A DNA stretch of 64,000 bases from Nostoc sp. TH1S01 (GTDB lineage Bacteria; Cyanobacteriota; Cyanobacteriia; Cyanobacteriales; Nostocaceae), in contig JAGKSW010000019.1 in NCBI GenBank assembly GCA_018993265.1, positions 1-64,000 of the forward strand, in the 5' to 3' direction. Each line of letters opens with the position of its first letter. Position 1 is the stretch's first letter. Below, in pieces: positions 21,968 to 32,097 of the stretch. The position numbers and the translations under genes are program-made. The notes beneath the pieces were generated by a model, which was given only the letters and a program-made list of their open reading frames with translations, was not told the origin of the DNA and made no database searches.

Positions 21968-22019
21968 ATTGTACTCCCAACAAATAAACGTTAAACCAAC
22001 TACTTTAAGGTGCAAAACA

Positions 22020-22235
22020 ATGGCAGTCGAAAAAACTAACTCTTCTTCAAGCTTGGCAGAAGTTATTGACCGTATTTTAGACAAAGGTATCGTTGTAGAT
22101 GCTTGGGTACGTGTTTCTTTAGTTGGTATTGAATTACTAGCAATCGAAGCTCGCATCGTGATTGCTTCCGTTGAAACCTACCTGAAATATGCAGAAGCTG
22201 TAGGTCTAACACAATCAGCTGCAATGCCTGCTTAA
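22020..22235 (+). CDS. gvpA: gas vesicle structural protein GvpA, copy 2
   Basis: Encodes a 71-residue protein identical to copy 1. The two genes differ at four positions, all third-base or Leu first-base synonymous changes (ATC/ATT, CGC/CGT, ATT/ATC, TTG/CTG). The true start is the ATG at 22020, with the same AAGGTG ribosome site (22007-22012) as copy 1; an upstream ATG at 21969 is out of step with the family start. Duplicated gvpA is known in Calothrix and Anabaena and raises subunit output. Confidence 0.98.
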
Positions 22236-22427: not shown

Positions 22428-22817
22428 ATGACGGCTTTAATGGTAAGAATCCGGCAAGAGCATCGGTCGATAGCTGAGGAAGTCTCTCAACTATTTAGAG
22501 AGACTCATGAATTCTTGTCTGCTACAACAGCACATAGACAAGAGCAAGCCAAAAAGCAAGCACAACAGTTACATCAGTTCCATCAAAACTTGGAACAAAC
22601 AACCAACAAGTTTCTCACAGAAACTACTAAAAAAAGAGCTGCTCAAGCTGAAGCACAAGCAAAGTTTTTGCGTCAGTTCTACCAAGAACTTGAGCAAACA
22701 ACCCACGAGTTTCTAGCAGAAACAGCTAAAGACAGAGCTGAGAAAGCCAAAGCTCAAAGACAAAATCTGCATCAGTTCCGTCAGGATTTGTTTGCTAGTA
22801 TTTTTGGCACATTTTAG
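22428..22817 (+). CDS. gvpC: gas vesicle outer protein GvpC
   Basis: The external strengthening protein that sets critical collapse pressure. The 129 residues resolve as a 21-residue lead, three exact-length 33-residue repeats (residues 22-54, 55-87, 88-120) and a nine-residue tail LFASIFGTF. Repeats 2 and 3 begin LEQTT and each ends in a QF(H/Y/R)Q-type helix, the classic amphipathic ladder. Three repeats is fewer than the five of Anabaena flos-aquae GvpC, as I recall. The start ATG at 22428 gives [19 protein letters not shown], the usual N-terminus. Confidence 0.95.
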
Positions 22818-23242: not shown

Positions 23243-24481
23243 ATGACTACCGCTACAAATAACAAGAAAAGAGCTGTTCTGCGTGTCCGTCCTGGACAAT
23301 TTGTCGTTACACCTGCAATTGAGCGGGTAGCAATTCGGGCGTTGCGTTATCTGACATCAGGGTTTGCTATTCACTTACGCGGCCCAGCTGGTACAGGTAA
23401 AACAACCTTAGCTATGCATTTAGCTAACTGTCTAGATAGACCAATCATGTTGGTTTTCGGAGATGATGAATTTAAAAGTTCTGATTTGATTGGTAGTGAA
23501 TCTGGTTACACCCATAAAAAGTTACTAGACAATTACATCCACAACGTTCTGAAAGTTGAAGACGAACTAAAACAAAATTGGGTTGATTCGAGGCTAACTC
23601 TCGCTTGTCGAGAAGGCTTCACTTTGGTCTATGACGAATTTAACCGTTCCAGACCGGAAGTCAATAACGTGTTACTCTCAGCTTTAGAAGAAAAAATTCT
23701 TACCCTTCCTCCCAGTAGTAATCAGCCAGAATACCTCCACGTTAATCCTCAGTTTCGAGCTATTTTCACTTCCAATCCAGAAGAGTACTGCGGAGTTCAT
23801 TCAACTCAAGATGCTTTAATGGATCGGTTGGTAACTATTAATATGCCAGAGCCAGATGAGCAAACTCAAATCGAGATATTAGCTCAAAAAACTGGTGTTA
23901 ATAGAGCAGATGCTCAGTTAATTGTGCGGTTAGTGAAAGCATTTCGCTTAGGTACAGGCGGGGAAAAGACCTCCGGTTTACGGTCTTGTTTGATGATTGC
24001 GAAAGTATGTGCGGAACACAATATTTTAGTATTGCCAGAAAATACTGATTTCCGCGAAATTTGTGCAGATGTGCTGTTTAACCGCACAAATTGGTCTGCT
24101 AGCGAAGCTACAACGATTTTTCTAGAATTACTGAACCACTTACATGTACAGGCAATAGAGGAATCGGATAATAGTATCACAGCAGAAGCTGAAGGTACAG
24201 ATGCGATCGCCGAAAGCGGGTTTCCCACTATCATCGATTCTAATTTTGAAGCTGATCATCCTGAAGGTACAGAACAGTCAAATGTAGATAAATTTGTTCC
24301 CTTTGAGAAAGAAATTTATCACTACTTGCAACAACACAAAAGTGCAGCATTAGCTGTAATTCAACAAGAATTCAATCTCAGTCGCACTGTCACTTCCAAT
24401 GCTCTCAATGCTTTAGAGCAGAAAGGTTTAGTGAGCCAGAACAACCGTGTATATACCATTGAAGAGCCGAATCAATCGTGA
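23243..24481 (+). CDS. gvpN: gas vesicle ATPase GvpN with C-terminal winged-helix-like tail
   Basis: A MoxR-type AAA+ ATPase needed for normal vesicle growth. The start [19 protein letters not shown] is typical; Walker A is GPAGTGKTT (~47-55), Walker B lies in [14 protein letters not shown] (~130-143), and the [12 protein letters not shown] sensor block follows near 175. Residues ~352-408 ([19 protein letters not shown] onward) look like a winged helix: [20 protein letters not shown] is a plausible recognition helix unit. An acidic linker precedes it. The stop overlaps the GTG start of gvpJ by four bases, so the two are coupled. Confidence 0.95.
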
Positions 24482-24930
24482 CTACTACCCCAATACACCC
24501 AACACGCCCTCAAACTAACTCAAATCGAGTAATTCCTACTTCTACACAAGGCTCTACCTTAGCGGATATTCTCGAAAGAGTTTTAGATAAAGGAATTGTG
24601 ATTGCTGGTGATATTTCTGTGTCTATTGCTTCAACAGAACTATTACATATCCGAATTCGTCTGCTAATTTCTTCAGTTGATAAAGCCCGTGAGATGGGTA
24701 TTAATTGGTGGGAAAACGACCCCTATCTCAGTAGCAAATCTCAACGTTTAGTTGAAGAAAACCAACAACTGCAACAACGTCTCGAAAGTTTAGAAACACA
24801 GCTACGTTTACTCACATCTGCACATGTGAAAGATGAAGTGACATTAATAGCTCAAAATCAAGAAGATTTGCAGCCCCTATCTGAAGAAAATAGTCAAATA
24901 AAAAAGGATTTCCAAGTTGAAGCTGAGTAA
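24478..24930 (+). CDS. gvpJ: gas vesicle protein GvpJ
   Basis: A minor GvpA paralogue thought to seed vesicle assembly. Residues ~27-70 carry the GvpA-like core, [20 protein letters not shown] and [20 protein letters not shown], followed by NWWENDPYL and a C-terminal coiled-coil ([20 protein letters not shown]). The start is a GTG inside the gvpN stop region, giving translational coupling. At 150 residues it has the longer C-terminus usual for cyanobacterial GvpJ. Confidence 0.93.
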
Positions 24931-24998: not shown

Positions 24999-25472
24999 AT
25001 GACAATGGTTTGTACTCCAATTGAAAAGTCGCCCGATTTGCTACCTACCACTTCTAAAGCTAACAATAAAGCAGGTTTAGCTCCTTTACTTTTGACTGTA
25101 GTGGAACTAGTCCGCCAGTTGATGGAAGCACAAGTAATTCGGCGCATGGAACAAGACTGTCTCAGCGAAACTGAATTAGAAAAAGCTAGTGAAAGTTTGC
25201 AAAAGTTAGAAGAACAGGTTTTAAACTTGTGTGAGATTTTTGAGGTTGATCCCGCAGAGTTGAATATAAATTTAGGAGAGATTGGTACTCTTTTGCCATC
25301 ACCTGGGTCTTATTATCCGGGTGAAGTTGGAAATCAACCTTCGGTACTGGAACTGCTAGACCGTCTATTAAATACAGGAGTTGTTGTAGATGGTGAAATA
25401 GATTTAGGTCTAGCTCAACTCAATCTCATTCATGCTAAGTTGCGGTTAGTTTTAACTTCAAGACCTTTGTAA
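24999..25472 (+). CDS. gvpK: gas vesicle protein GvpK with GvpA-like C-terminus
   Basis: Residues ~27-100 are GvpK: GLAPLLLTVVELVRQLMEAQ, VIRRMEQDCLSETELEKA and ELNINLGEIGTLLPSPG. Residues ~113-155 then repeat a GvpA/GvpJ-type core, SVLELLDRLLNTGVVVDGEI and LAQLNLIHAKLRLVL, so the protein is a GvpK plus GvpA-like fusion. I think this layout recurs in cyanobacterial GvpK. The role in assembly is essential in other systems but its mechanism is not settled. It starts 68 bases after gvpJ. Confidence 0.93.
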   Translation: MTMVCTPIEKSPDLLPTTSKANNKAGLAPLLLTVVELVRQLMEAQVIRRMEQDCLSETELEKASESLQKLEEQVLNLCEIFEVDPAELNINLGEIGTLLPSPGSYYPGEVGNQPSVLELLDRLLNTGVVVDGEIDLGLAQLNLIHAKLRLVLTSRPL

Positions 25473-25609
25473 TTACAAATAGCTTGGCATAACTAGCACT
25501 GCATAAAAAAATGAAGGTGGTTAAGAGTCAAAAGCCTAAAGTCTTGATTTTTGACAACCGCATCAAGAAATCCATAATTATTCCACTAGTTTGTATATTC
25601 TTAGTCATT

Positions 25610-26344
25610 ATGAGTTTTGGCATTTATTTATACGGTATTTTTCCTGATGTAATCCCAGAGCAATTAGGAATTCAAGGATTAGATTCTCAACCTGTTTATA
25701 GTCATGTGATTGATGGATTTAATTTCTTATATTCAGAAGCAAAACAGGAAAAATATTTGGCTTCTCGGCGCAATTTGATTAACCATGAAAAAGTGCTAGA
25801 GCAGGCTATGCACGGTGGTTATAGAAGTTTACTGCCTTTACGTTTTGGCTTAGTTGTCAAAGATTGGGAAACAGTAGTTACACAACTGCTGCAACCATAT
25901 AAAGAGCAGTTACGAGAGTTATTCCAAAAATTGGATGGTCGGCGAGAGGTCAGCGTTAAGATTTTTTGGGATACCAAGTCGGAATTACAAGCCATGATGG
26001 AAGCTCATCAAGACTTAAAGCAACAGCGCGACCAAATGGAAGGGAAAGCATTAAGTATGGATGAGGTAATTCACATTGGACAATTAATTGAAAGTAATTT
26101 AGCAAATCGCAAAGCCTCTGTGATTCAAGCCTTTTTTGATGAGTTAAAACCCTTGGCAGATGAGGTTATTGAAAGTGACCCCATGACAGAAGACATGATT
26201 TACAATGCTGCTTTTTTGATTCCTTGGGATAAAGAACCGATATTTAGTCAACAAGTAGAAACGATTGACCAAAAATTTGGCGATCGCTTACGCATTCGCT
26301 ACAACAATTTTACTGCACCTTATACATTTGCTCAAATTGCTTGA
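25610..26344 (+). CDS. gvpF: gas vesicle protein GvpF (GvpF/L family)
   Basis: An accessory protein that binds GvpA during early assembly. Family marks are YLYGIFPDVIPEQLGIQGLD, the SEAKQEKYLASRRNLINHEK block, LLPLRFGLVVKDWE and the C-terminal RIRYNNFTAPYTFAQ. I placed the start at the ATG at 25610 (MSFGIYLYGIF), giving 244 residues as in Anabaena-type GvpF. An ATG at 25511 in the same frame adds 33 residues containing a hydrophobic run (IIIPLVCIFLVIM); this would be a membrane anchor unlike the family, so I treat it as leader sequence, but it is not excluded. It abuts gvpG. Confidence 0.92.
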   Translation: MSFGIYLYGIFPDVIPEQLGIQGLDSQPVYSHVIDGFNFLYSEAKQEKYLASRRNLINHEKVLEQAMHGGYRSLLPLRFGLVVKDWETVVTQLLQPYKEQLRELFQKLDGRREVSVKIFWDTKSELQAMMEAHQDLKQQRDQMEGKALSMDEVIHIGQLIESNLANRKASVIQAFFDELKPLADEVIESDPMTEDMIYNAAFLIPWDKEPIFSQQVETIDQKFGDRLRIRYNNFTAPYTFAQIA

Positions 26345-26358
26345 TAGGAGCTAATACA

Positions 26359-26742
26359 ATGCTTGGGAAAATTTTACTATTGCCAGTCATGGGGCCGATT
26401 AATGGACTTATGTGGATTGGAGAACAAATTCAAGAGCGCACTAATACTGAATTTGATGCTCAAGAAAATCTTCATAAACAGTTATTAAGTCTGCAATTAA
26501 AATTTGATATGGGCGAAATTTCTGAAGAAGAATTTGAAATTCAAGAAGAAGAGCTTTTATTGAGAATTCAAGCTTTAGAGGAAGAAGCAAGCTTAAATGC
26601 CGAATCTGAAGAAGAAGAAGAAGAAATTCTAACTGTGCAATCTGTATTTATGACAGCATCTGATGAAAAACAAATTTACCAAGAGAAACCTGTTGCTAGT
26701 AAAGAATATGAAGATAACCAGAATTTAGTTTTATCGCCCTAA
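26359..26742 (+). CDS. gvpG: gas vesicle protein GvpG
   Basis: A small accessory protein. The start MLGKILLLPVMGPINGLMWI with GEQIQERTNTEFD and the following EEEFEIQEEELLLRI helix are diagnostic. The ATG at 26359 has a strong ribosome site TAGGAG eight bases upstream; a TTG at 26341 inside the gvpF end is less likely. The C-terminal third is highly acidic (EEEEEE near residue 88) and looks disordered. At 127 residues it is longer than the ~85 of archaeal GvpG. A hairpin 42 bases downstream may end the first transcription unit. Confidence 0.92.
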   Translation: MLGKILLLPVMGPINGLMWIGEQIQERTNTEFDAQENLHKQLLSLQLKFDMGEISEEEFEIQEEELLLRIQALEEEASLNAESEEEEEEILTVQSVFMTASDEKQIYQEKPVASKEYEDNQNLVLSP

Positions 26743-26981: not shown

Positions 26982-27302
26982 TTAATATTCAAATTCAAAA
27001 GTTTGGTAACTATTGGAAGATTCAAAGATAATTTTGGGAATTGTTGACTGAGAAGAAACTTGTGGCTCAGAATTACGTAAATTTTTGATATTGGTTTCTG
27101 TAGTGCTGATTTGGTTTTCGAGTGTACCCAGCCGTTGCTTAAGTAGTATTGTTCGTTGTTCAATAAAAGCCAATTCTTGCTTAATTCTTTGACGTTCTGT
27201 AACTAATTTATAAAGTTCTAATTGGCTAGAAGCTTCTGATTTGTTACGAGGCATTGTGGTAATTTTAGGTCTGATTATGCCACGATTACGTATTTTCTTC
27301 AT
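26982..27302 (-). CDS. gvpV: GvpV-like gas vesicle accessory protein
   Basis: A 106-residue protein starting MKKIRNRGIIRPKITTMPRN, with a basic N-terminus, then a coiled coil (LVTERQRIKQELAFIEQRTI, LLKQRLGTLENQISTTETNI). This matches my memory of cyanobacterial GvpV, which has the same RPKITTMP lead and coiled coil, but I could not check it. The ATG at 27302 is chosen over an ATG 36 codons upstream whose extension looks non-coding. It is the only gene of the cluster on the minus strand, has its own terminator, and diverges from gvpW. Confidence 0.6.
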   Translation of the reverse strand: MKKIRNRGIIRPKITTMPRNKSEASSQLELYKLVTERQRIKQELAFIEQRTILLKQRLGTLENQISTTETNIKNLRNSEPQVSSQSTIPKIIFESSNSYQTFEFEY

Positions 27303-27452
27303 TGAAGATACCTGAATAATTGATAGCATTATAGCTAAGATTTTCATAATGTAAATAGTTTTCCAAAAATCAGCATTTTTTATATTTATATGCCAAGATG
27401 GTTGTGCCAATATGCGATTAGAAGTTTACAGTTTTTTAATTGGGGTTAAATA

Positions 27453-28136
27453 ATGCGATCGCCAAACTTTTATACTTATGCCTTTTTCAAAAATCATGAT
27501 TCTTCTGTGAGTTTACCAAAGGGTAATCTTGCCCCTTTATTTATAATCAAGGGCAATCAGCTATCCGCTATTGTCGAACCAGGCATATCTTTAGAATCTA
27601 GCCAAGATAATGATGAGCAAATCATTAAAATGGTATTAAATCATGACCGAGTAATTTGTGAAATATCTCATCAAATTACAGTTTTACCATTACGCTTTGG
27701 TACTTATTTTCATTCTGAAGCGGCACTGCTCAATCATATCGAGACTCATGCTCAAGAATATGAGCAAAAGCTAAATAAAATTCAAGGTAAACACGAATAT
27801 ACTTTAAAGCTGATTCCTCAAAAAATTGACGAAATTGCAATGCCTGTAGGGGCCAGTGGCAGAGATTATTTTATGGCGAAAAAACAATATTTTGAGTATC
27901 AAAAAAGCTTTATTAATGCCCAAAATGAAGAAAAAACTCATCTAATTAATTTAATTACAGTTACTTTTCCATCAGCTGTCATAATTCAACAGCATACAGA
28001 AGAAGTACGCTTGCATATTTTAGTCGATGACCATGAACAAGCTTTGCTTAAACAACAAGTAGTTACTTGGCAAGCACAATGCCCACATTGGCAATTCATT
28101 TTAAGTGAACCGCTACCTCCTTATCACTTTGTTTAA
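27453..28136 (+). CDS. gvpW: GvpW-like GvpF/L family gas vesicle protein
   Basis: A second GvpF/L-family protein, 227 residues. It begins with the FYTYAFFKN strand, has a MVLNHDRVICEISHQITVLP LRFGT block that is the family core, and ends CPHWQFILSEPLPPYHFV, as I recall for cyanobacterial GvpW. It is more divergent than gvpF. It is followed after 36 bases by the tandem ArsA-like ATPase on the same strand, so the three downstream genes are likely one unit with a promoter between gvpV and gvpW. Confidence 0.8.
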   Translation: MRSPNFYTYAFFKNHDSSVSLPKGNLAPLFIIKGNQLSAIVEPGISLESSQDNDEQIIKMVLNHDRVICEISHQITVLPLRFGTYFHSEAALLNHIETHAQEYEQKLNKIQGKHEYTLKLIPQKIDEIAMPVGASGRDYFMAKKQYFEYQKSFINAQNEEKTHLINLITVTFPSAVIIQQHTEEVRLHILVDDHEQALLKQQVVTWQAQCPHWQFILSEPLPPYHFV

Positions 28137-28172: not shown

Positions 28173-30080
28173 ATGATGAGCGATTACGATTCATTGCATC
28201 TACTTATGTTTAGTGGCAAAGGTGGGGTTGGTAAAACCACCATTTCTTGCAGTTTTGCACGTTATTGGGCCAGAAGGTTTCCTCAAGAAAAAATTCTGTT
28301 AATTTCTACAGACCCTGCACATTCTTTAGGTGATGTCTTGCAATCAGAAGTGAAAGATATTGCTTTACCACAAACAGATTTACCTAATTTGAGTGTTCAA
28401 GCCTTAGATGCTCAAAAATTGTTGTTGGAATTTAAAGCCAAATATAGTTACTTTTTAGAAATACTTGTAGAACGAGGCAGTTTAGCTGATGGAGACGATT
28501 TAGCGCCTGTATGGGATTTAAACTGGCCTGGTTTAAATGAATTAATGGGATTGCTAGAAATTGAGCGTTTGCTAGCTGAAAAAGAAGTAGATCGTGTAGT
28601 TATAGATATGGCTCCTTCTGGCCATACATTAAATTTATTACGTTTAAAAGATTTTTTAGATGTTATTTTAAATTCTTTAGAATTGTTTCAAGAAAAACAC
28701 CGAGTAATTACCCAAAGTTTTGCAGGTAGTTATACACCTGATTCAGTAGATGACTTTTTAGTAGACTTGAAAACTCAATTAGCAGAAGGTAGACGTTTAC
28801 TGCAAGATGAAAAATTTACAGGGTGTTTGGTCGTAGGGATTGCTGAACCAATGTGTTTTGCCGAAACTGAACGCTTTTTAAATAGTTTAGAAACCCTAGA
28901 AGTTCCTTACGCTGGATTATTTATTAATCACATTTTATTGAATTCAGAGTTAGAACCCGACCGTTATGCAGAACAGCAAAATTTACTTGAGAAATTCCTA
29001 AAACTGACTCCAAATCAGCCTATTTTTACTGTACCGCAACAAAGAGTAGAACCTTTGGGTGCCGTGGCATTAGATGCTTTAGCATCTCAAATTCAAAAAA
29101 TTGTCAGTGTTGAACTTACTCCACCACCAACTATTCAATGGCCTGCAAAAGTTTTACCTAGCTTTTGTGATTTTATCAATGAAGGTTGTAAATTGATTAT
29201 TGTAGGTGGTAAAGGAGGTGTAGGTAAAACAACAGTATCAGCGGCTATCGCTTGGGCTGCTTCTCAACAGCATCCAGATAAAAATATTCGGGTAATTTCA
29301 ATAGATCCAGCGCACTCTTTAGGAGATGCTTTTGGGAAAGAACTAGGTCATGAACCGATATTTTTAGCATCTAATTTGAGTGGACAAGAAATTGATGCTA
29401 ATAGAGTTTTAGAAAAATTTCGCGCCGATTATCTGTGGGAATTAGCAGATATGATTAGTGGCGAAGGTTCACAAACAGATACAACAATCAATGTTGCTTA
29501 TGTTCCAGAAGCATGGCGACAAATTATGTCTCAAGCTTTACCAGGTATCGATGAAATGTTATCTCTGGTAACTGTCATGGATTTACTCGAAAGTAACCAG
29601 CAAGATTTAATTATTTTAGATACAGCGCCAACTGGTCATCTTCTGAGCTTTTTAGAAATGCCATCAGCTTTAGGAGATTGGTTATCTTGGATATTTAAGT
29701 TGTGGATCAAATATCAAGATGTTTTGGGTCGAGTTGATTTCATTGGCAGATTGCGGCATTTACGCCAACAAGTTGTCCAAGCTCAGAAGAAGTTAAAAAA
29801 TCCAAAACATACTCAATTTATTGGGGTAATTCAAGCTGAAGCGGCAATTGTGGCTGAACATATCCGCTTAACAGAATCCCTGAAGAAGATGTCTGTGAGT
29901 CAACGTTATGTCGTGCAGAATCGCTACAGCCAAGAAGTAGAAATTGCTGACAGTTTATTTCCAGAACAAACTATGATTCGCCTACCTGGTTTACCCCGTT
30001 CTGTAGAACCTATAGCCCGCATCCAAGGGGCAGCAAATCTTTTATTTGAAGTTGAAGAATTAACTCCGAATAAAAGATGA
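28173..30080 (+). CDS. tandem ArsA/Get3-type ATPase in gas vesicle cluster
   Basis: Two complete ArsA/TRC40 ATPase halves in one 635-residue protein. Each has the deviant P-loop GKGGVGKTT (~15-23 and ~345-353), a switch I DPAHSLGD, and a switch II (DMAPSGHTL and DTAPTGHLL). No ArsB pump, ArsR or CXXC zinc motif is present, so arsenite export is unlikely. The family binds hydrophobic tail-anchored proteins in eukaryotes (Get3). Placed directly after gvpW and 47 bases before a Cdc48-type ATPase, it is a good candidate chaperone for the hydrophobic GvpA or for vesicle membrane-like surfaces; that is inference. Confidence 0.88.
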   Translation: MMSDYDSLHLLMFSGKGGVGKTTISCSFARYWARRFPQEKILLISTDPAHSLGDVLQSEVKDIALPQTDLPNLSVQALDAQKLLLEFKAKYSYFLEILVERGSLADGDDLAPVWDLNWPGLNELMGLLEIERLLAEKEVDRVVIDMAPSGHTLNLLRLKDFLDVILNSLELFQEKHRVITQSFAGSYTPDSVDDFLVDLKTQLAEGRRLLQDEKFTGCLVVGIAEPMCFAETERFLNSLETLEVPYAGLFINHILLNSELEPDRYAEQQNLLEKFLKLTPNQPIFTVPQQRVEPLGAVALDALASQIQKIVSVELTPPPTIQWPAKVLPSFCDFINEGCKLIIVGGKGGVGKTTVSAAIAWAASQQHPDKNIRVISIDPAHSLGDAFGKELGHEPIFLASNLSGQEIDANRVLEKFRADYLWELADMISGEGSQTDTTINVAYVPEAWRQIMSQALPGIDEMLSLVTVMDLLESNQQDLIILDTAPTGHLLSFLEMPSALGDWLSWIFKLWIKYQDVLGRVDFIGRLRHLRQQVVQAQKKLKNPKHTQFIGVIQAEAAIVAEHIRLTESLKKMSVSQRYVVQNRYSQEVEIADSLFPEQTMIRLPGLPRSVEPIARIQGAANLLFEVEELTPNKR

Positions 30081-30127
30081 ACCCGTTCAACAAACAATAG
30101 GATTTGCGAGATTTTTGGAGTGATGAT

Positions 30128-31966
30128 ATGAGTGAATTTTTCAAGGGATTTGAACAACTAATTGAATTAGCTAAGGCTTTAGAAGAAAAAGCGGAGAAGG
30201 GAGAACTGAAGACAGACATCCAGATTAACTCGCGTCCGATGAGTAGTATCCCTCGTCATGGAGGTATCCCTCGTCCGAATAATATGAATAATGATGTTGG
30301 CACTAGCCGGATTCGGACTCAACCTGCTCCTAATCCTAATAATGGTAATGGCGGAGATTCGGAAGTTGTACCACCTAATGGCCCTTCTGATTACTCGTTA
30401 AAAGATGTCGGAGGACTAGGTGAAGTTCTCAAAGAGCTAAAAGAACTAATTGCGATTCCCTTAAAACGTCCTGACCTGTTAGCAAAATTGGGGCTGGAAC
30501 CGACACGCGGTGTATTGTTAGTTGGGCCTCCTGGTACTGGTAAAACTCTGACGGCGCGGGCTTTAGCAGAAGAACTGGGAGTGAATTACATTGCTTTAGT
30601 AGGGCCGGAAGTTATTAGTAAATACTACGGTGAAGCTGAACAAAGACTGCGAGGCATTTTTGAGAAAGCCGCTAAAAATGCTCCTTGTATCATCTTTATT
30701 GATGAAATTGATAGTTTAGCTCCAGACCGCAGTGCAGTGGAAGGCGAAGTGGAAAAACGCCTTGTAGCCCAACTATTGAGCTTGATGGATGGTTTTTCTC
30801 AGAGTCAAGGTGTGATTGTGCTGGCGGCTACTAACCGTCCTGACCATCTAGACCCAGCGTTGCGTCGTCCTGGTCGCTTTGACCGTGAAGTTCAGTTTCG
30901 TGTCCCAGATGTGAAAGGACGCAAAGAAATTCTGCAAATTCTGACACGGGCGATGCCTTTAGAGAATACCGTTGATTTGGATGCGATCGCCGAACGTTCT
31001 GTAGGGTTTGTTGGGGCTGACTTAAAAGCTCTTTGTCAAAAAGCAGCCTATACTGCCCTACGTCGTCAGATTCCTTCGATTGACGGCGAAATTCCTGAGA
31101 ATATGACAGTTACCCAAGCAGACTTTCTCCAAGCACTCAAAGAAATCAAACCGGCTGTCTTACGCAGTGTGGAAGTAGAAGTTCCTCAAATCGCCTGGGA
31201 CGATATTGGTGGTTTGGATAACATTAAGCAAACTCTCAAAGAATCAGTAGAAGGAGCCTTACTGTATCCTGAACTATACCTGCAAACCAAAGCATTAGCA
31301 CCCAAAGGCATCTTACTGTGGGGGCCTCCAGGGACAGGCAAGACTTTATTAGCTAAAGCGGTTGCTTCCCAAGCCAGAGCGAATTTTATTGGTGTCAATG
31401 GCCCAGAATTACTTAGTCGTTGGGTAGGTGCGAGTGAACAGGCGGTGCGGGAATTATTTGCAAAGGCGCGTCAGGCAGAGCCTTGTGTCGTATTTATTGA
31501 TGAAATTGATACTTTAGCCCCAGCACGCGGTAGTTTCAATGGTGATTCCGGAGTGAGCGATCGCGTCGTTGGACAATTGCTGACAGAATTGGATGGTATT
31601 GAAGTAGGCAGCACTATCTTAGTAATTGGGGCGACAAATAGACCTGATGCCCTTGACCCAGCTTTGTTACGCGCTGGACGCTTAGATTTACAGATGAAGG
31701 TAGATTTACCCGATTTAGCTAGTCGTTTGGCAATTCTCCAAGTTCATAGTCACGGCCGACCTCTAGATAGTGTCGATTTAAACTATTGGGCAGAGATGAC
31801 CAAAGACTGGAACGGTGCAGATTTAACTTTACTCTGCAATCAAGCGGCAATAGAAGCAATTCGGCGTTTTCGCGCCGAAGGTCTGACAGACCCTGCGGAA
31901 ATCAAGATTACGACTGATGATTTCAATTACGCTTATCAAGTTCTCACAGAACAACGAGCGGATTAA
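30128..31966 (+). CDS. Cdc48/VCP-like double AAA+ ATPase
   Basis: A 612-residue ATPase with two AAA modules and no Cdc48 N domain. D1 has GPPGTGKT (~133) and IIFIDEIDSLAP; D2 has GPPGTGKT (~399) and VVFIDEIDTLAP; each has the NRPD-x-LDPAL-RPGR-type second region of homology (AATNRPDHLDPALRRPGRFD and GATNRPDALDPALLRAGRLD). The first ~35 residues form an amphipathic helix (FFKGFEQLIELAKALEEKAE), then a Pro/Asn/Gly linker to ~90. The ATG at 30128 is preceded by TTGGAG; an upstream ATG at 30104 is less likely. It probably unfolds or extracts a cluster protein. Confidence 0.9.
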   Translation: MSEFFKGFEQLIELAKALEEKAEKGELKTDIQINSRPMSSIPRHGGIPRPNNMNNDVGTSRIRTQPAPNPNNGNGGDSEVVPPNGPSDYSLKDVGGLGEVLKELKELIAIPLKRPDLLAKLGLEPTRGVLLVGPPGTGKTLTARALAEELGVNYIALVGPEVISKYYGEAEQRLRGIFEKAAKNAPCIIFIDEIDSLAPDRSAVEGEVEKRLVAQLLSLMDGFSQSQGVIVLAATNRPDHLDPALRRPGRFDREVQFRVPDVKGRKEILQILTRAMPLENTVDLDAIAERSVGFVGADLKALCQKAAYTALRRQIPSIDGEIPENMTVTQADFLQALKEIKPAVLRSVEVEVPQIAWDDIGGLDNIKQTLKESVEGALLYPELYLQTKALAPKGILLWGPPGTGKTLLAKAVASQARANFIGVNGPELLSRWVGASEQAVRELFAKARQAEPCVVFIDEIDTLAPARGSFNGDSGVSDRVVGQLLTELDGIEVGSTILVIGATNRPDALDPALLRAGRLDLQMKVDLPDLASRLAILQVHSHGRPLDSVDLNYWAEMTKDWNGADLTLLCNQAAIEAIRRFRAEGLTDPAEIKITTDDFNYAYQVLTEQRAD

Positions 31967-32007
31967 TTTAGGACTGGCCAAGCCCCGTTGGAGCGGGTGT
32001 AGGGTGT

Positions 32008-32040
32008 AGGGGTGTCAGGGTTTTGTTCTCTGACACTCCT
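32008..32040. terminator. bidirectional terminator-like hairpin closing the gas vesicle block
   Basis: An 11-bp stem with one mismatch, AGGGGTGTCAG against CTGACACTCCT, loop of about 11 bases with TTTTGTT. It lies between the convergent Cdc48-type gene and the hybrid kinase and could stop both. Confidence 0.55.
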
Positions 32041-32097
32041 AACCTTGATACTATACCTAACAACTTCTTTCCCCCACTCCCTACTCCCTACTATTCA

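Follow-up and report, generated by a model that had tools for sequence, protein, structure and literature searches.

Why should a gas vesicle (GV) gene cluster be followed by genes for two further ATPases, one of the Get3/ArsA family and one resembling Cdc48? The question is raised by a stretch of 64,000 nucleotides from Nostoc sp. TH1S01 (contig JAGKSW010000019.1, positions 1 to 64,000), which as a whole is called the window below. The first-pass annotation of the window, made from its letters alone, had described a 635-residue protein with two ArsA-type halves directly after gvpW on the same strand and, 47 bases further on, a 612-residue double-AAA ATPase. Our scans recovered both: two PF02374 stretches in the former, whose gene begins 36 bases past the end of gvpW (28136), and two PF00004 stretches in the latter, whose ATG at 30128 lies 47 bases past the arsA stop (an alternative TTG at 30104 would give 620 aa). 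At issue is how the very hydrophobic protein shell of the GV is handled, repaired and recycled; published gvp gene lists include no unfoldase of the Cdc48 type; here and below, statements on published work refer to the accessible text of the cited papers. Our answer, to which we would assign a probability of about one half, is that the pair is a GV-dedicated protein-handling module, composed of a shielding ATPase and a helix-docked unfoldase, that serves quality control or recycling and not obligatory assembly. The annotation had supposed that the pair handles GvpA or dismantles vesicles, an interpretation that is, as a whole, partly supported.

Genome-wide distribution of the ATPase pair

To follow the two genes within the window's phylum, we used a sample of 386 genomes (sample 1), in which a genome was defined as GV-positive by GvpL/F (PF06386) and an ATPase was counted when its match exceeded 400 bits. 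GvpL/F was found in 56 genomes; the AAA protein was present in 55 and the tandem ArsA in 51 of these, and neither occurred in any of the 330 GvpL/F-negative genomes. The score gaps are wide: the next-best ArsA matches reach about 90 bits or lower, and the next-best AAA match is a second copy in one genome (G213) at 310 bits, followed by matches at about 210 bits. Fisher p values ignore shared ancestry and are not to be taken literally, and we prefer the contrast at genus level as a guide. Among the listed rows, seven genera (g1, g2, g5, g7, g14, g28 and g29) include both GvpL/F-positive and GvpL/F-negative genomes, and within them ArsA tracks GvpL/F in 7/7 and AAA in 6/7. By this test both are probable gas vesicle accessory genes, in that their genome-wide presence tracks that of the GV genes, and the Cdc48-type gene has the distribution of a core companion to the organelle.

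The arrangement of the pair was examined in the 50 genomes of sample 1 that carry both genes. They are adjacent on the same strand in 27, with 28-237 bases between matches, adjacent and divergent in 6, and more than 3 kb apart in 17, four of them within about 7 kb. The first-pass annotation had allowed that the link to gvp would be chance if the genes occurred widely away from gvp clusters. Both do lie more than 12 kb from the best gvpF match in 14/50 genomes, some of which may be explained by contig breaks, yet GvpL/F-negative genomes lack them; the genes are therefore retained even where the cluster is scattered, and chance linkage is ruled out by the presence/absence counts. On the 35.8 kb p4 plasmid of Nostoc sphaeroides (L104, NZ_CP031945.1), a gvp cluster, arsA and the AAA gene occur together. 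In one cyanobacterium (L123:9806-11883), two single-domain open reading frames (ORFs) stand in place of the tandem ArsA, and in another (G229) the two halves are found on separate contigs, C254 and C297.

The association recurs in other phyla. Genome contigs were scanned with the ArsA alignment, and the best 80 loci comprised 11 cyanobacterial and 69 other ones; three were set aside in the locus table, namely L171 (Halobacillus, whose ArsA, at 27% identity, stands some 5 kb away from gvp genes) and L132 and L163 (in which the queries revealed no gvp cluster). By tblastn, gvp genes stand beside ArsA in 24 of the 69 non-cyanobacterial loci, and 13 of these 24 also carry a Cdc48-type AAA gene (one only partly). 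The record titles of the 13 name Chloroflexaceae, Geobacteraceae, Hydrogenedentes, Acidobacteria (3), an archaeon, Chlorobiaceae (3), Chitinophaga, Patescibacteria and Nitrospinota, although most of these records are metagenome-assembled genomes whose titles may be wrong.

A second sample of 118 genomes, drawn at phylum level and centred on a Chlorobiaceae genome (sample 2), was scored with GV-type ArsA defined at >300 bits and GV-type Cdc48 at >900 bits. GvpA was found in 11 genomes; the same 10 of these carry both GV-type ATPases, which were found in none of the 107 GvpA-less genomes. The two genes are adjacent in 9/10 and lie on different contigs in G470. A single GvpL/F-like match without GvpA was counted as GvpA-negative in this sample; GvpL/F-like domains occur within frames of 889 and 980 aa (G421:C1:788992-789774 and G476:C12:269757-270539) in two genomes without a GvpA match.

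The ArsA-gvp link itself is known. ArsA homologues in gvp operons have been in print since Castillo & Saier 2010 (PMC2963123) and appear again in a co-evolution study (PMC5464585), in whose co-evolution cluster two uncharacterised members could not be matched to window genes. As in the window, clusters 4 and 6 of Castillo & Saier contain a two-domain ArsA (average ~637 aa) among gvp genes, with hosts including Nostoc, Anabaena and Geobacter and with Hsp20 mentioned in several, and the authors proposed that ArsA energises a biogenesis step. Unlike here, the accessible text of that paper names Cdc48 0 times, does not test presence and absence across whole genomes and mentions no helix. In the open-access literature we found no report of a Cdc48-type gene as a GV companion or of its GvpH-like helix. 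What is new here is a cyanobacterial AAA protein that lacks the Cdc48 N-domain and starts with a GvpH-like helix.

Family, motifs and N-terminal helix of the two ATPases

The window ArsA is a member of the Get3/ArsA/TRC40 family (TIGR00345, 325.9 bits against a cutoff of 135), with two P-loop halves whose P-loops read GKGGVGKT. Its structure model (mean pLDDT 84.6) has ArsA, algal ArsA1 and Get3/TRC40 as best Foldseek matches. Sequence comparisons used a tree of 34 tandem ArsA proteins and an AAA tree of 36 rows, and structure alignments covered a subset of 22 ArsA and 20 AAA rows. Against the arsenical-pump family TIGR04291 the protein scores 165.3 bits, far below the cutoff of 650. Three alignment columns, which we take to be the metalloid-binding site of arsenical ArsA, hold Cys in 4/4 arsenical ArsAs, in 0/13 cyanobacterial and in 0/15 other GV ArsAs. 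A branch (97/97) of the ArsA tree parts the four arsenical ArsAs, together with one Bathyarchaeota protein, from the 28 GV ArsAs, which are joined on their side by one Citreicoccus protein encoded away from gvp genes.

An arsenite-efflux ATPase that adjoins the gvp genes by accident is therefore hard to reconcile with the TIGR04291 score and the missing cysteines, on which we reject an arsenite role. The family name speaks for it, as does Nodularia nsp15480, numbered right after the gvp genes and listed as arsenate-related (PMC3610870); presence that tracks GvpL/F speaks against it. The first-pass annotation had already argued against this role from the lack of ArsB or ArsR nearby, and neither family turned up when 20 more proteins of the window were scanned against Pfam (E up to 1e-10); the cysteine columns strengthen its argument, and we consider the chance of an arsenite function negligible. 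A second alternative, that ArsA resembles ParA or MinD in function and places or partitions vesicles in the cell, draws on the shared P-loop superfamily and on weak ParA and MinD family matches below their cutoffs. Profile and Foldseek results place the protein with Get3/ArsA, and the AAA partner would be left unexplained, which makes such a role very improbable.

Among Get3/ArsA relatives, the GV ArsA shares its P-loops and family profile with Get3/TRC40. Get3 proper is a single-domain homodimer with a zinc CxxC motif that binds tail-anchored clients and passes them to a membrane insertase; in cyanobacteria the GV ArsA is instead a tandem protein and mostly lacks this motif, which is absent from 47/49 cyanobacterial ArsAs, including the window's (the other two have CDDC at residue 592). 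At least one CxxC is present in 18/18 long non-cyanobacterial GV ArsAs and in 1/6 single-domain ones. The nearest PDB sequence to the GV ArsA profile is algal ArsA1 (433.5 bits). Chlamydomonas ArsA1 (5zme/5zmf; Foldseek rank 3), a tandem TRC40 with tail-anchored proteins of the chloroplast as its cargo, is likewise a two-domain pseudodimer without CXXC (PMC11170914); it differs in being algal, in its tail-anchored client and in sequence (23% identity in the fold alignment). By analogy with this family, the GV ArsA may shield hydrophobic Gvp segments.

Like Cdc48, VAT and p97, the GV AAA protein is a D1-D2 double AAA, and its best PDB match is the VCP-like ATPase 5g4g. The Walker residues of both rings and the loops KYYG and WVG, presumably the aromatic pore loops, are invariant in 31 AAA sequences, and because of this conservation the cyanobacterial protein is probably a threading unfoldase. 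Against TIGR01243 (CDC48), the window protein scores 674.9 bits, below the full-length cutoff of 802.65; the match starts at profile position 175, and residues before 89 are unmatched, so that the Cdc48 N-domain is missing. The GV Cdc48 of Methylocella keeps it, matching TIGR01243 from profile position 3. In place of the N-domain, the cyanobacterial protein has a GvpH-like helix and a predicted disordered linker: the model, weaker than that of ArsA (mean pLDDT 77.7, pTM 0.53), places a helix at residues 3-23, and residues 27-87 have pLDDT <50, forming a variable linker to about residue 87. Proteasome-linked unfoldases carry a C-terminal HbYX motif; it is absent here, the AAA C-terminus being QRAD.

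The conserved N-terminal helix of the cyanobacterial AAA proteins resembles, at the level of sequence profiles, the start of the GvpH/Hsp20 proteins encoded in gvp clusters of other phyla. GvpH otherwise differs from AAA in having an alpha-crystallin-type domain instead of motor rings. A profile of 53 AAA N-termini (AAA-N) placed Hsp20 proteins in the top 6 and in 8 of the top 9 matches among 5005 non-cyanobacterial ORFs (E 6e-5 to 0.65); conversely, all 30 listed matches of a profile of 12 GvpH N-termini (GvpH-N) among 2414 cyanobacterial ORFs are AAA genes, and hhalign of the two profiles gave 92%. Both ORF sets were drawn from loci rich in gvp genes, so that whole genomes give a fairer control. 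In the complete genome of Nostoc sp. TH1S01, the single GvpH-N match up to E 10 is the start of AAA (E 0.0018), and thus no other GvpH-type N-terminus was found there by profile search. The control was extended to 38 further genomes (29 with AAA, G099, which is GvpL/F-positive and lacks AAA, and 8 GvpL/F-negative). The AAA start is the best GvpH-N match in 25 of the 29 AAA-bearing genomes, at E <=0.032 in 23 and at E 2.3 and 2.5 in two; outside the AAA start, the best match in these 29 genomes has E 0.107, and neither the eight GvpL/F-negative genomes nor G099 gave a match better than E 1.48. In the reverse direction, AAA-N was run against six whole non-cyanobacterial genomes and ranked the known GvpH first in 4, second in 1 (behind an unchecked 178-aa ORF) and missed it in 1.

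Shuffled sequences served as a further control. The median score of the 53 AAA N-termini is 21.4 bits, with none below 8.0, against a maximum of 8.1 among 3180 shuffles, and 7/12 GvpH N-termini score above the best of 2400 shuffles (11.2 bits), with 5/12 not doing so. The GvpH/Hsp20 proteins of Halobacterium, Octadecabacter, Methylosinus and Methylocella all score <1 bit with AAA-N; with GvpH-N they reach 15.0, 29.9, 10.7 (weak) and 0.5 bits (unrecognised), respectively. The link between AAA and GvpH therefore runs through the GvpH of Chlorobi/Nitrospinota type. As for GvpH itself in cyanobacteria, it is reported absent from A. flos-aquae (PMC4982088); one section of PMC2963123 describes Anabaena/Nostoc clusters without hsp20, and another states that four SEED Cluster 4 members have hsp20.

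A proposed role in protein handling for the vesicle shell, and its alternatives

From the observed gene content, co-occurrence, linkage, conserved motor motifs, lack of arsenite cysteines and helix resemblance, we infer the clients, docking partner and direction of work of the pair. The frequent companionship of both ATPases with GVs suggests a quality-control crew of the GV's own. The ATP cycle of the tandem Get3/ArsA protein would hold and release hydrophobic GV proteins, namely GvpA and two relatives of it, GvpJ and the GvpA-like stretch of GvpK. The flexible GvpH-type N-terminal helix would dock the double-ring AAA protein at the GV assembly machinery, which, given the likeness of the helices, would be the same machinery to which GvpH is brought. 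In favour of this reading, GvpH can prevent GvpM aggregation in Haloferax transformants (PMC6107691). There, AAA would thread and unfold surplus or misassembled Gvp proteins or those of collapsed shells, and the unfolded proteins would pass to ArsA or to general proteases. In the simplest picture, faulty Gvp proteins would be extracted and then refolded or removed. As the GvpH-type helix is one short element that can be deleted or swapped, docking is testable.

A broader reading, which we offer tentatively, is that a trio recurs across many phyla, composed of the Get3/ArsA shielding ATPase, a Cdc48-type unfoldase and the small heat-shock protein GvpH, and that cyanobacteria lost GvpH and moved its docking helix to the unfoldase in place of the N-domain; one protein would then both dock and unfold, and shells would be repaired or recycled. 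Independently of GVs, two haloarchaeal plasmids carry an Hsp20 gene directly 5' of a Cdc48 gene in a stretch without gvp genes (L192:1940-4590 and L193:2204-4713), and the pairing of Hsp20 with Cdc48 may be wider than gas vesicles.

Several observations weigh against a dedicated, helix-docked module. In sample 1, one GvpL/F-positive genome lacks AAA (G099, with CDC48 matches no higher than about 260 bits, like its GvpL/F-negative congener) and five lack the tandem ArsA (G334, G193, G282, G346 and G050), as rechecked with family profiles. Outside the phylum, 11 of the 24 ArsA-gvp loci show no AAA gene, four of them being less than 13 kb long (L116, L120, L129 and L139), and one genome of sample 2 (G455) has weak GvpA and GvpF matches and neither ATPase. 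The plasmid gvp clusters of Methylocella and Methylosinus contain Hsp20/GvpH and Cdc48 and no annotated ArsA in the stretch, and those of Octadecabacter and Spartinivicinus show neither gene in the stretches examined. In the AAA tree (16 cyanobacterial AAAs, 14 GV Cdc48s and 6 outgroup Cdc48s, with an arbitrary root), the cyanobacterial proteins and the GV Cdc48s from other phyla do not form a single lineage. The helices resemble each other over a short span of about 25 residues; GvpH-N misses the AAA start in four AAA-bearing genomes (G157, G320, G282 and G255), and the two proteins may have converged on an amphipathic helix. To these we add two heterologous systems: A. flos-aquae gvpA with gvpNJKFGWV, without the pair, makes GVs in mammalian cells (PMC10344784), and Anabaena PCC 7120 gvpABC, NJKFG and VW, also without it, yields irregular GVs in E. 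coli, whose cells float (PMC7204071).

Neither gene is therefore strictly needed for assembly in these hosts, which argues against an obligatory GvpA chaperone and, unless host chaperones substitute, makes quality control or recycling likelier than essential assembly. The same experiments bear on the alternative that the pair are assembly factors, ArsA delivering GvpA to the growing rib and AAA remodelling nucleation complexes (GvpN, GvpF, GvpJ), so as to aid native growth and shape. The co-occurrence and operon evidence fits this alternative equally. GvpN, the known ATPase of the gvp set, is required for GV enlargement (PMC9501494), the A. flos-aquae set in E. coli gives too few GVs for phase contrast, and the authors of that work consider that genes outside the annotated operons are possibly required (PMC10344784); these scarce vesicles, together with the irregular PCC 7120 ones, leave room for an assembly-helping role. 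The mammalian result stands against it, as does the record of GvpH, which shares the helix with AAA: it is dispensable for vesicles in Haloferax transformants (PMC6107691), and a Serratia gvpH mutant is unchanged in vesicle shape and stability (PMC4982088). We regard a role in assembly as unlikely on balance.

Unfoldases of the Cdc48 type are able to work on a wide range of clients, and the pair might instead remodel a gvp regulator, or other Gvp accessory proteins, to set their levels, leaving the shell proteins untouched. Besides this broad client range, such a regulatory role is favoured by the Cdc48-bearing clusters of Methylocella and Methylosinus, which also carry a sigma-54 regulator and a response regulator, and by a PAS/GAF sensor histidine kinase gene that lies convergently just 3' of the AAA gene and its hairpin in the window. 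The ORFs scanned from gvpA to the AAA gene included no member of a regulator family, and the helix is common to a Gvp chaperone; we judge this role improbable.

The question also has a practical side. GVs are in use as reporters for ultrasound, and of the clusters that have been transplanted only some function (PMC10344784); companion genes that raise GV yield or allow controlled turnover would be useful.

Layout of the locus

The features of the cluster and of the pair are listed in Table 1. The first-pass annotation had placed a terminator-like hairpin 3' of the pair; the hairpin is there, with 14 pairs, but its identity as a terminator is unproven, because it lacks a T tract and the plus-strand sites listed by the terminator scan include none past 31966.

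Table 1. Coordinates of the gvp cluster, the ATPase pair and associated elements in the window.
Feature	Position	Strand	Basis
gvpA copy 1, 71 aa	21708..21923	+	ORF; related cyanobacterial gvp loci match at 89-100%
gvpA copy 2	22020..22235	+	Internal ATG within ORF 21969-22235; start inferred by comparison with copy 1
gvpC, 3 repeat stretches	22428..22817	+	PF01304 1.6e-40
gvpN, AAA+ ATPase of the known gvp set	23243..24481	+	PF07728; annotated gvpN of plasmid records match
gvpJ	24478..24930	+	PF00741 2.6e-16
gvpK with C-terminal GvpA-like stretch	24999..25472	+	PF05121 1.4e-31; PF00741 1.3e-13
gvpF	25511..26344	+	PF06386 1.8e-67
gvpG	26341..26742	+	PF05120 4.7e-24
gvpV, placed by position and conservation	26982..27410	-	Without Pfam match; between gvpG and gvpW
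gvpW, GvpL/F family	27453..28136	+	PF06386 1.5e-32
GV-type tandem Get3/ArsA ATPase, 635 aa	28173..30080	+	PF02374 x2, 1.5e-97; TIGR00345
GV-type double-AAA ATPase, 612 aa, Cdc48-like D1+D2	30128..31966	+	PF00004 x2, 1.6e-93; TIGR01243
GvpH-like N-terminal helix of AAA, ~residues 1-26	30128..30205	+	GvpH N-terminus profile, E 0.0018
14-pair hairpin 3' of the AAA gene, without T tract	32007..32041	+	100-base stretch folds with z -3.19

Two features of the gvp genes themselves may be recorded. Residues 115-153 of GvpK are GvpA-like (PF00741, 51 bits), so that two gvp families are fused in one protein. The ORF at the gvpV position and gvpW lie on opposite strands in 27 of the 30 retrieved cyanobacterial loci that match both.

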